Below are positions 1 through 40,942 of a DNA stretch of 64,000 bases, in pieces. Under the pieces are notes generated by a model. That model searched no databases. It saw only the letters and a program-made list of their open reading frames with translations, and was not told the DNA's origin. Origin of the DNA: Bacteroidales bacterium (GTDB lineage Bacteria; Bacteroidota; Bacteroidia; Bacteroidales; G3-4614); NCBI GenBank assembly GCA_017521245.1, contig JAFXDI010000009.1, positions 1-64,000 on the forward strand, read 5' to 3'. Position 1 is the stretch's first letter, and the number at the start of each line of letters is the position of its first letter. Position numbers and translations under genes: made by a program.

Positions 1-1035
1 AAAGTATTACCGTCAGGCACAGGCAACGTAACCATCGACGGAAGTACTACCACCCCCAAATACGTAGTGCCCGGCACCAACGTCACCTATGTAGCCACCG
101 CAAAAAGCGGATACAAATTCAAAGGTTGGAATATGGAAGGAATAGAGATAAGCACTTCAAACACGCTTATACTTCCCATAAATTCAAATACTGAGATAAC
201 TGCAGTATTCCAAAATATACCCAATTATAGCGTAACAGTAGTAAGCAGTGGCAATGGAACAGTAAGTAGCAGTTCAAGCAGTGTACAAGAGGGCGGCAGT
301 GTAACCTTAACCGCTACCCCCAATAGTGGCTATGTATTTAAGAATTGGACCTTAAACGGCAACGTCGTAAGCACCCAAAACCCCTATACAGCCATCGTAA
401 CAGCCAATAGCGTATATGTAGCAAACTTTATAGATAAATATAACGGACACGAATACGTTGACCTCGGCTTAAGTGTCAAATGGGCAACCTGCAACGTAGG
501 CGCAACAACGCCGGAGGAATATGGTAATTACTATGCGTGGGGCGAAACCACACCAAAAACAACTTCCTACGATTGGATTACCTATAAATGGTGTAATGGA
601 GATAAGTATTCAATGACCAAATACTGTACAAGTTCAAATTATGGCACAGTAGATAATAAAACCACATTAGAACTCACAGACGATGCAGCTCATGTAAATT
701 GGGGTGGAAGTTGGCGTATGCCAACATACGAGGAACTAGAAGAATTAATGGATACAAATAACTGTACATGGAATTGGACAACTCAAAACGGAGTAAGAGG
801 TTATAAAGTAACAAGTAAGAAGAACGGCAACAGTATATTTCTCCCGGCGGCTGGCTATCGCAGCAATAGCAATCTTAACTCTGCGGGCAGTTACGGTTAC
901 TACTGGTCGAGTTCGCTTTATACGAGCAGTAGCAGTAGTAGCTTCGCTTACTACTTGGACTTCATTTCGGGCAATGTGGATTGGGACTACTTCTACCGTT
1001 ACTACGGGCGCTCTGTCCGCGCAGTTTGCGAGTAG
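1..1035 (+). CDS. Surface protein, 3' part: InlB-type B-repeats plus C-terminal FISUMP domain; probable DGR variable protein
   Basis: The frame is open at base 1 and ends at TAG 1033-1035, so the N-terminus and any signal peptide lie outside the window. Residues 1 to about 145 contain two divergent InlB B-repeats (GxGxV, then GYxFKxW, then a YxAxF end), which usually build an extracellular stalk. Residues about 146-344 are a FISUMP (Fibrobacter succinogenes major paralogous) domain, recognisable from VDLGLSVKWATCNVGA, WGGSWRMPT and the final SVRAV. The last 65 codons are A-poor and dominated by NNY codons, unlike the A-rich codons just before them; see the variable-region entry. The gene at 40037-40942 is a non-diversified relative. 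Role inferred: surface-exposed ligand binding. Confidence is high for the domains and lower for the function. Confidence 0.85.
   Translation, partial: KVLPSGTGNVTIDGSTTTPKYVVPGTNVTYVATAKSGYKFKGWNMEGIEISTSNTLILPINSNTEITAVFQNIPNYSVTVVSSGNGTVSSSSSSVQEGGSVTLTATPNSGYVFKNWTLNGNVVSTQNPYTAIVTANSVYVANFIDKYNGHEYVDLGLSVKWATCNVGATTPEEYGNYYAWGETTPKTTSYDWITYKWCNGDKYSMTKYCTSSNYGTVDNKTTLELTDDAAHVNWGGSWRMPTYEELEELMDTNNCTWNWTTQNGVRGYKVTSKKNGNSIFLPAAGYRSNSNLNSAGSYGYYWSSSLYTSSSSSSFAYYLDFISGNVDWDYFYRYYGRSVRAVCE
841..1035 (+). other. Candidate DGR variable region (VR) at the 3' end of the FISUMP gene
   Basis: In DGRs a reverse transcriptase copies a template repeat and mutates adenines, so AAY codons become NNY codons in a C-type-lectin-like target. 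Here runs such as gac tac ttc tac cgt tac tac and agc agt agc agt agt agc are what AAC/AAT codons give when one or both adenines change. They encode D, Y, F and S in a row, while invariant residues (YWSSS, GRSVRAV) keep their codons. The 3' end is G/C-rich, as an initiation-of-mutagenic-homing site would be, and a hairpin follows the stop codon. No template repeat or reverse transcriptase is visible in the window, so they would have to lie upstream or act in trans. Confidence 0.6.
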
Positions 1036-1037
1036 AA

Positions 1038-1057
1038 TTAAACGCCACAGCGTTTAA
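1038..1057 (+). other. 8-bp stem / 4-nt loop hairpin just after the variable region
   Basis: TTAAACGC (1038-1045), loop CACA, GCGTTTAA (1050-1057), starting 2 bases after the stop codon. The DGR of phage BPP-1 needs an 8-bp stem, 4-nt loop hairpin/cruciform a few bases 3' of its variable region, and this matches in size and place. It is followed by a T-rich stretch, so it could instead be a simple terminator. Confidence 0.55.
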
Positions 1058-2872: not shown

Positions 2873-3050
2873 GCTAAAAAGAGTATCAATGTATTTCCCT
2901 GATTTTGGTTGTTTTTTCGGACGTACCATGGTACGTCCCTACATTAAGACGTTTATAATCATATAAGTTAAGGTGCAAAATTCTGTAACCAGACAAGTAG
3001 GGACACACCACGGTGTGTCCGTCTAAAATACAAATATATCTGTTATCTTT

Positions 3051-4289
3051 TTAATTCAGAAGGTAATCAAAGATATTCATCATGATAATGCCGTTTGGCA
3101 TGGTATGTGTTGGTATATTATCTGTTGTAATAATTATTTTTGTAAAATAGTCGTTAGTAAGGGTAAGAGAACGTTGTTCTTGGTTCTTTTTCTCCTCATT
3201 TGGTAACGAATATGCAGATTGTATATATAATCTTTCACTGCCTTTGTTACAAACAAAGTCAATTTCAAGAGTAATTCTAATAGTTTTATCTTCATCATTT
3301 TTCTGATAGAATGTAACACTTCCTACATCTACTTTATAACCATTACCGACAAGATGGTTATATATGATGTTCTCCATGATATGAGTTGGCTCTACTTGAC
3401 GGAAATTCAAAAGAGCATTACGCAATCCAAGGTCAGCAAAATAATATTTGTATGGAGTGTCAATATACTTCTTCCCTTTAATATCATAGCGAACTGCTTT
3501 CTCAATGAGGAATGAGTCTATAAAGTAATCTATATAGGTTTTTATTGTATTGTGACTTATTTTTACCTTTTTCTCACTAACGAATGTATCTGTGAGTTTG
3601 TTGGGATTAGTTAATGCTCCTATATTTGATGCCAAGAGACAAAATAATTCTTCTAATTCAGCATCATTTTTTATTCTATTACGGTTTATGATATCACTTA
3701 AATATGTCTCTTTAAGCAGCTCTTGAAGAATTTCTGCTTTTCGTGCTTTATCCTTCTCAATGACAACCATTGGCAGCCCCCCATAATAAATGTAATCTCG
3801 CCACAATGAAGAAGTATCTTCATCTGACATTTCTTTTATTTCTTTAAACGAAAGTGGTTGAAGATGGATTTGAACTCCGCGTCCTCTGAATTCTGTAACT
3901 ATATCTGAAGAGAGGAATTTAGCATTACTTCCTGTTACATATACATCAAGATTCTCAATATGTAAGAACCCATTAAGAACATCAACAAAACTTTCTAACA
4001 TCTGAACTTCATCAATTAACACATAATACATTTGTGAATCTTGCTTTGTCAAATTCTCTACATATTCATATAAAGTTTCTGCTTTGCGATATTTTCGGTG
4101 TACAAATGAGTCAAGTTGTATTTCAATAATATGCTCGGCATCAACACCATTGTTCAAAAGATGTTGCTTATAAAGATTGAATAGCAGATACGACTTGCCA
4201 ACGCGTCGTAACCCTGTAACAATCTTTATCAAATGATTGTGCTTGCTGCTTATCAACTTTCTGATGTATTCTGCTCTTTTAAATCTCAT
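3051..4289 (-). CDS. AAA_14 / DUF4143 ATPase (accessory)
   Basis: A 412-aa ATPase of the AAA_14 plus DUF4143 type. Walker A is in VTGLRRVGKSYLL (about residues 24-36) and Walker B is YYVLIDEVQ (about 88-96). A sensor-like TGSNAKFLSS and an EFRGRG stretch follow, and the C-terminal DUF4143 part resembles a PD-(D/E)XK nuclease fold (LEIDFVCNK). These proteins are abundant and strain-variable in Bacteroidota, and their role is not well established; a defence or mobile-element link is often suspected. The gene stands alone within the REP arrays, with its own promoter at 4329-4336. A second family member lies at 42015-43373. Confidence 0.85.
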   Translation of the reverse strand: MRFKRAEYIRKLISSKHNHLIKIVTGLRRVGKSYLLFNLYKQHLLNNGVDAEHIIEIQLDSFVHRKYRKAETLYEYVENLTKQDSQMYYVLIDEVQMLESFVDVLNGFLHIENLDVYVTGSNAKFLSSDIVTEFRGRGVQIHLQPLSFKEIKEMSDEDTSSLWRDYIYYGGLPMVVIEKDKARKAEILQELLKETYLSDIINRNRIKNDAELEELFCLLASNIGALTNPNKLTDTFVSEKKVKISHNTIKTYIDYFIDSFLIEKAVRYDIKGKKYIDTPYKYYFADLGLRNALLNFRQVEPTHIMENIIYNHLVGNGYKVDVGSVTFYQKNDEDKTIRITLEIDFVCNKGSERLYIQSAYSLPNEEKKNQEQRSLTLTNDYFTKIIITTDNIPTHTMPNGIIMMNIFDYLLN

Positions 4290-4303
4290 ATAAGTATAGT
4301 TTT

Positions 4304-4336
4304 TGTGTATTTACACAGTTTTCGTCTGCAAAGATA
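4304..4336 (-). promoter_or_regulatory. Promoter and inverted repeat of the DUF4143 gene
   Basis: The minus strand reads TATCTTTG at 4336-4329, a perfect TAnnTTTG -7 box 40 bp before the start codon; no clear TTTG -33 is seen. The inverted repeat TGTGTA/TACACA (4304-4317) falls just inside the predicted transcript and could be an operator. Confidence 0.55.
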
Positions 4337-4379
4337 GTGATTTAATTAAAAAATAGGAATTTTGTCTCTATTATTTCCC

Positions 4380-5115
4380 CGATTTTGGTTGTTTTTTCGG
4401 AAAAGATACACAGAGTTTGCAACCATACAAGTAGGGACACAGCATGCATACAAGGTATTTGTGAAACAAATAGGATTAACTGAATGTTAATCCGACCGCA
4501 GTATGGGGCATTTTTAGGTAATTACATTGTAATTAAAATTGACTAAATGTCAATTTGTGCCTAAAAATGGGGAGTGCAGTGCTCTGCACGACGGAGGTAT
4601 TAACTCCTATGCGACGGAGGAAATCAGTGCTCTGCACGACGGAGTCACGTCCGCCGAAAAGAGTATCAATGTATTTCCCCGATTTTGGTTGTTTTTTCGG
4701 ACGTACCATGGTACGTCCCTACATTAAGGCATTGATAATCATATAAGTTAAGGTGCAAAACTCTGCAACCATGCAAGTAGGGACACAGCATGCTGTGTCC
4801 GCAGTTGTCAGTTTTTAGTTGTACGGTGCTACATACACCTTAGTTATTAGCAATAAAGGCTCTAATAACTATTTATTATTCTTTGTTTTTTCGGACGTAC
4901 CATGGTACGTCCCTACATTAAGATATTGATAATCAGATAAATCGAGGTGCAAAATTCTGTAACCAAGCAAGTAGGGACACACCACGGTGTGTCCGTCAAA
5001 AAGAGTATCAATGTATTTCCCCGATTTTGGTTGTTTTTTTCGGACGTACCATGGTACGTCCCTACATTAAAATGTTTATAATCAGATAAGTTAGGGATAA
5101 AATTCTGTAACCATG
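4380..5115. repeat. REP/BIME cluster C (6 units, one compound)
   Basis: Units: a compound element at 4435-4652, then palindromes at 4699-4718 (minus), 4781-4800 (plus), 4893-4912 (minus), 4975-4994 (plus) and 5042-5061 (minus). Plus units carry GTAG on the 5' side and minus units CTAC on the 3' side. Linkers match clusters A and B, so the DUF4143 gene sits between two halves of one array. Confidence 0.85.
4435..4652 (+). repeat. Compound REP with nested insertions (type II plus type III)
   Basis: It starts as the type II element at 2467. The type II unit is then interrupted at 4509-4572 by a further element with inverted ends CATTTTTAGG / CCTAAAAATG and two inner hairpins (TAATTAC/GTAATTA and AATTGAC/GTCAATT) like those of type I. 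The unit ...AGTGCTCTGCACGACGGAG then appears twice (ending near 4597 and 4644). The right REP arm is diverged (ACGTCC). Confidence 0.7.
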
Positions 5116-40036: not shown

Positions 40037-40942
40037 ATGCTAAGAAAATATTTACATCAAATTATATATATTATTACACTTATTGTTCTCTTTTCGTGTG
40101 AGGGAAATATATATGATAATGGAGTAGATAAAGAAGTAGTTCCATGTCAAATTAAGGTAAAAACCAATGGATATGGAAGAGTAACTCCTGATAAATTTAT
40201 TGTTACTGCGGGAGAGACTTTTACTATTAAGGCACAAGCAAATAGAGGATATATATTTAAATATTGGGCTTCTGGTGATAGAATTGTCAGTATAAACAAT
40301 ATTTATAAAACAGAAGTTTATAAAGATACAGAGTTTGAAGCATATTTTCAGAACGAAGAGGTAGATATAAAAGCTGTAGATTTAGGGCTAAGTGTAAAAT
40401 GGGCAGATTGTAATATTGGAGCCTCTTTGCCTCATGAGTATGGAGATTTTTTTGCATGGGGAGAGACCTCTCCTAAAAGTTCAATAGATTTTTTTTGGGA
40501 AAGATATATTTTATGTGAAGGAACTTATAGTTCATTGACTAAATATAATTCAATTGCAGAGTTTGGAAGAATTGACAATAGAAACATAATAACCAAATAT
40601 GATGATGCAGCATATTCTATTATGGGAGAGAATTGGCGTTTGCCCTCAAAAAACGAATTTATAGAACTATATGAAAAATGCAAATGGGAGTGGACTGAGC
40701 AAAAAGGAACTTATGGTTATAAAATAAAAGGTCCAAACGGAAATACAATATTTCTTCCGTTAACAGGATATTTTGTTGGTACACATCATAACCTTATAGA
40801 CTTTGGATATTATTGGAGTAATATAAATAGTGAAATAAGTCCAAATGATGCCTATGCTTTAACATTCACTCAAGATAATATAGAAATAAAGACTGTATCA
40901 CGAAAAAACGGATTACCCATACGAGCAGTGTGGAGAGAATAA
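40037..40942 (+). CDS. FISUMP-domain surface lipoprotein
   Basis: 301 aa. Lipobox VLFSC (C at about residue 22) with EGN following. One InlB-type B-repeat (about 40-110, IKVKTNGYGRVTP to FEAYFQN) leads into a FISUMP domain (about 115-301, VDLGLSVKWADCNIGA, GENWRLPSKNEF, then PIRAVWRE). It has the same layout as the protein at 1-1035, but its last codons are ordinary A-rich ones, so it is not a diversified target. It follows the 877-aa lipoprotein gene and ends at a long-loop terminator (40954-41035). Role inferred: surface binding or adhesion. Confidence 0.8.
   Translation: MLRKYLHQIIYIITLIVLFSCEGNIYDNGVDKEVVPCQIKVKTNGYGRVTPDKFIVTAGETFTIKAQANRGYIFKYWASGDRIVSINNIYKTEVYKDTEFEAYFQNEEVDIKAVDLGLSVKWADCNIGASLPHEYGDFFAWGETSPKSSIDFFWERYILCEGTYSSLTKYNSIAEFGRIDNRNIITKYDDAAYSIMGENWRLPSKNEFIELYEKCKWEWTEQKGTYGYKIKGPNGNTIFLPLTGYFVGTHHNLIDFGYYWSNINSEISPNDAYALTFTQDNIEIKTVSRKNGLPIRAVWRE

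Follow-up and report, generated by a model that had tools for sequence, protein, structure and literature searches.

The end of a FISUMP gene in a Bacteroidales genome is a DGR-written variable region, recognised from the template repeat of a sister species

Positions 838-1032 of the window, i.e. the whole 64,000-nucleotide stretch of Bacteroidales DNA analysed here, are a DGR-written variable region (VR), and the comparison of its adenine and non-adenine sites with the template repeat (TR) of a same-genus genome, G002, is decisive on this point. Almost certainly, this VR belongs to a target served remotely (in trans) by a Bacteroidales DGR whose template is near-identical to the G002 TR, the target being orphaned of its own machinery or that machinery being unassembled or unbinned. 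In such a system, the DGR reverse transcriptase (RT) would copy the TR RNA while misreading its adenines, the cDNA would replace the 3' end of gene 1-1035, and this replacement would randomise AAY codons of a C-type-lectin-like domain that is presumably located at the cell surface and involved in ligand binding. The features concerned are the following:

1-1035, + strand: DGR target gene (ORF), 5' end absent at the contig start; two InlB-type (Flg_new_2) repeats, then a C-terminal FISUMP/Lcl-type domain predicted to be C-type-lectin-like
439-1032, + strand: FISUMP domain, the whole stretch apparently being replaced at the orthologous locus of G006, between flanks of 97-100% identity
838-1032, + strand: VR, with the written tract within about 847-1019 and adenine-site changes at about 863-1011
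1038-1057, + strand: hairpin with an 8-bp stem and a CACA loop, 2 bp after the TAG stop (DNA folding z = -6.96, 0 of 200 shuffles as good)
1089-1130, + strand: second, larger inverted repeat with a stem of about 17 bp, common to the downstream region of the C12b target (DNA fold -14.6 kcal/mol, z -6.96)

The source assembly (2.09 Mb, 54 contigs, 99.7% complete) is not closed, and its contig C9 begins with the window, base 1 of which is also base 1 of the contig, so that ORF 1-1035 is still open there. Profile matches of this gene in Pfam are PF18998 (2.8e-28) and, below the cut-off, PF07603 (8e-6). The first-pass annotation had described its last ~65 codons as A-depleted and rich in NNY codons, and both descriptions agree with our counts: A represents 18.8% of codons 841-1032 versus 37.4% of the rest of the gene, and 78% of these codons end in C or T versus 54% elsewhere in the gene. 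Of the 1069 stretches obtained by sliding a 64-codon frame along the window ORFs, 0.6% are as A-poor, 0.1% are as NNY-rich, and none is both. The related domain encoded at 40037-40942 was correctly presented as normally A-rich, with 38.0% A over its last 64 codons as against the 18.8% given above. Downstream of the target gene, palindromic-repeat debris (gtagggacacaccatggtgtgtccgc and similar) is dense between 1060 and 3000, and a REP-associated-transposase-like ORF at 1664-2197 carries one copy of the palindromic repeat within itself.

When the VR was used as a query, many copies were found in same-genus genomes, and an RVT_1 match adjoins a copy in two of them. Contig C5 of G002 carries a complete DGR on one strand, in the order FISUMP target with its VR, accessory gene resembling MutS domain I, TR and RT. 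The same order is observed on contig C92 of G006, which ends within the RT. The TRs are rich in AAC/AAT and sit between accessory and RT, outside the target gene. In the DGR RT (P0001), the motif reads LPIGNLTSQ, with IGNLTSQ in place of QGxxxSP, and DGR RTs typically have the SQ form. Relatives of this RT were found at 17 gut-MAG loci, nearly all from Bacteroidales, and on 8 viral contigs; at 18 of the 24 loci scanned, TR and VR form a pair that differs almost exclusively at TR adenines. All 18 of these loci have an accessory of about 170-205 aa in the VR-TR interval. It matches MutS domain I (Pfam MutS_I) in 8 of 17 members and its top Foldseek matches are all MutS; it would thereby fit the one named MSL in PMC10053308. 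At locus L067 (G005:C43), positions 494-1721 form a DGR remnant from which about 860 bp have been deleted (accessory end, TR and RT start), fusing accessory and RT, and its RT match holds an internal TAA stop. G004 contains 15 VR-like matches, and no RT was found in it.

Compared with the G002 TR, the window VR is changed at 21 of 54 adenine sites and at 5 of the 135 other sites (or 4/135, depending on the aligner), giving a Fisher p of 3e-9 that, like all such values here, presumes independent sites. Four of the five non-adenine mismatches fall at one end or the other, which is where a written tract should leave them, and the written core has 1/108; the VR also contains one 6-base in-frame insertion. 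This core fidelity equals that of the two remote VRs of G002 itself, which differ from their own TR at 22/54 and 23/54 adenines and at 1/135 non-adenine sites each. The cis VRs behave in the same way relative to their own TRs, with 20/54 adenine and 0/135 non-adenine changes in G002, and 29/57 and 0/132 in G006. As a control, the adjoining 156 bases of the same domain outside the VR show no adenine bias (11/62 A versus 15/91 non-A), and their changes fall mostly at codon position 3 (17/51), whereas this order is reversed in the VR (12, 7 and 6 of 63). Thus, a near-identical template from which the VR differs essentially only at template adenines exists in the sister genome, and the sequence that served as writing template was almost certainly a near match of the TR that G002 carries today. 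The proposal, initially made from composition and hairpin, that the gene end is a DGR target is upheld by this comparison.

The encoded domain was modelled with AlphaFold from 433-1032 (pLDDT 81, pTM 0.82). The 12 chains that align best with this model come from the Lcl C-terminal domain of Legionella and from C-type lectins, with Z 5.8-7.9 and rmsd 2.5-3.4 over 89-109 residues. Since Foldseek taken by itself is not significant (best E 0.48), the fold assignment relies on the second aligner and on the consistency of its list. According to the model, the target domain is C-type-lectin-like with the VR at its C-terminus. No convincing match was obtained when the PDB was searched by sequence with the profile of the domain, and the TIGR02145 model missed most of these FISUMP domains.

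The 8-bp/4-nt hairpin reported 2 bp past the stop is indeed present at 1038-1057, whereas a perfect hairpin of 8 bp with a 3-5-nt loop is expected 0.005 times per 10-bp interval of the window. A hairpin is found at the stop in three of the five VRs of the own genome (the window VR and two of the four others), with different stems in which pairing is kept. It is a plausible candidate for a DGR recognition element, but there is an even chance that it represents instead the 3' end of the mRNA or a recombination footprint. This alternative is suggested by the six G002 and G006 VRs that best match their own TR (0-2 non-adenine mismatches), all devoid of the hairpin, while the three hairpin-type G006 VRs have 4, 14 and 25 such mismatches, a complete separation of 3 from 6 (1 in 84), and by the identical ends, hairpin included, of the VRs G000:C18 (own genome) and G006:C1. 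A recognition role is favoured by the window VR and G006:C94, which combine the hairpin with a well-matched core (1/108 and 2/108), by the absence of a T run after the stem, and by the requirement for a similar hairpin after the VR in the BPP-1 DGR (PMC3240598). In all three G002 VRs and in the G006 VRs closest to their TR, which have no hairpin at the stop, a larger inverted repeat follows some 45 bp downstream, and the best-matched VRs of these two genomes end in GTGTGCG...TTTACC, resembling the TR flank. That the stop hairpin is a genome-wide repeat was ruled out: TTAAAC-N(0-10)-GTTTAA occurs 11 times versus 14 for the control, and 3 of the 11 occurrences sit exactly at VR stops. Downstream of the VR at L003 and L004, a second hairpin follows the first (AACAAACATTCGTTTGTT; in G004, GAGAGATATTCATCTCTC), its arms being changed and still pairing.

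Four further VR copies are present in the own genome (one on C14, one on C18 and two on C12), all inside FISUMP genes. Between any two of the five own VRs, 12-24 of 130 non-adenine sites are different, compared to 1-2 for the VRs of G002, and only the window VR is close to a known TR; this divergence indicates that the four others were not recently rewritten from the G002 TR. No TR was found in the own assembly with the VR as query (E up to 10), only five long matches being obtained, and the four that lie outside the window were ruled out as TR because all are in FISUMP reading frames. The RT and accessory queries, which do find G002, G005 and G006, gave no match in the own assembly to either the G002-type DGR RT or the accessory, and the 64-kb window contains no RT; two components of a complete DGR are therefore absent from this non-closed assembly. 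The only RT there, at G000:C14:13778-14350 (L001 1309-2646), is of the retron type, with LPQGSPLSP as its motif and the NCBIfam TIR-domain antiphage retron and Ec67 models as its closest profiles. On these grounds it was ruled out as the DGR RT, being unrelated to the DGR, and the nearest VR-like copy is more than 12 kb away, inside a reading frame.

The first-pass annotation had placed TR and RT to the left of the window or in trans. Action in trans agrees with a window free of RT; the leftward position is not supported, since the order VR-accessory-TR-RT would put the machinery to the right of the VR, and none is there. A second copy differing essentially only at adenines, which had been expected within the genome, exists in G002 and not in the own assembly. 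The lack of both TR and DGR RT, which had been considered sufficient to refute the proposal, is literally what the own assembly displays, yet the identity of the VR is settled anyway by the TR of the sister species. Our claim is nevertheless limited to past writing, because the own assembly contains no TR or DGR RT.

The window VR is a trans target, and its machinery either disappeared recently or sits on a piece that was not assembled or not binned. We consider it an even bet that TR, accessory and RT were lost from the lineage after writing of the window VR, the VRs now being frozen. This would account for an assembly 99.7% complete without any of the three, for own VRs divergent at non-adenine sites, and for an own tig locus at which the flank shared with G002 is immediately preceded by a FISUMP target and not by the DGR that G002 has there. 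The decay observed in G005, with its deletion and its stop in the RT match, and the 15 VR-like matches without RT in G004 point in the same direction, and there is a precedent in Treponema denticola, where some strains are devoid of TR and RT yet keep target genes that differ from TRs mainly at adenines (PMC4891356). What weighs against a loss is the core of the window VR, with 1/108 non-adenine differences from the G002 TR, from which we infer that any loss must be recent. The tig locus was rejected as proof of DGR loss: it is polymorphic between species, with three FISUMP genes in G003 and none in others, and can be read as loss or as gain.

The second possibility, to which we give a little less weight, is that the DGR resides in an assembly gap, or on a mobile piece left unbinned, and continues to write the window VR in trans. 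It is consistent with the 54 contigs of the assembly and the contig end that cuts the window gene itself, with the G006 DGR being cut inside its RT by a contig end, with a window VR core as faithful to the TR as the remote VRs of G002, and with the RT relatives carried by viral contigs. However, not a fragment of cis target, accessory, TR or RT is present in the own assembly, and the four other own VRs are not homogenised.

G006:C1 is the same locus as the window gene. Relative to it, window positions 204-400 have 0-3 mismatches per 50 bases (~94-100% identity), positions 401-840, upstream of the VR, are about 10-24% mismatched (8-24% for the FISUMP domain outside the VR), the VR stretch 851-1000 about 30-38% (32-38% for the VR itself), and positions 1051-1150 have 0 mismatches in 100. 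As the sequence upstream of the VR differs too, DGR action alone cannot explain this difference, and the simplest reading is that the whole FISUMP domain would have been replaced between the two loci. The flank at 3021-4397, an AAA-ATPase locus, is 99.1% identical to G006:C1, against ~86-88% at the tig locus of the same two genomes, and was likely exchanged horizontally with the G006 lineage in recent times. The window locus likewise appears recently exchanged with that lineage, so writing of the VR may have occurred in another host. It is conceivable, though we consider it improbable, that these lectins are diversified at two levels, the last 64 codons by DGR hypermutation and entire FISUMP domains by exchange across dispersed loci and species, with the stop hairpin as boundary or landing site; a genome deprived of its DGR could then still keep and reshuffle hypermutated modules. 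An ordinary lectin domain that evolves fast, through diversifying selection or gene conversion, with a fortuitous codon bias and no DGR, although whole FISUMP domains do get swapped and paralogues are many, is very hard to believe given mismatches confined to the adenines of a non-coding template beside a DGR-type RT and an adjoining part of the domain without such bias.

A DGR-written VR at 838-1032 shows that the template of a sister species can prove a VR when the machinery is missing. Several species of this single uncultured gut genus have a DGR core that is lost, broken or unassembled, yet many of their hypermutated targets remain. Surveys that start from the RT and search for an adjacent VR overlook such remote or orphan targets. 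The domain swap at one locus is also a hint of recombination spreading hypermutated lectin modules.

The window VR is genuine, yet it is not categorically new, since orphaned DGR targets have precedent. As in the T. denticola DGR (PMC4891356), several dispersed targets per genome and orphaned targets are found; the phylum and the target proteins are different, and here the accessory of the system is MutS-like and whole lectin domains are also exchanged at a locus. Fib_succ_major and DUF1566 domains are known DGR targets in the human microbiome (PMC4159848) and represent the same class of target domain, but no assembled machinery lies near the window target. With Bordetella phage BPP-1, it shares an adenine-specific VR at the 3' end of a lectin-fold gene and an 8-bp hairpin just past the stop; unlike BPP-1, which has a GRNA loop and Avd, it has an AT-rich stem, a CACA loop and an MSL-like accessory, and the system is chromosomal and acts in trans. 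Finally, the DGR accessory MSL, with the Pfam MutS domain I, was named in PMC10053308, and the VR-TR accessory of the relatives resembles it by matching MutS_I in both profile and fold, a likeness drawn through this domain.
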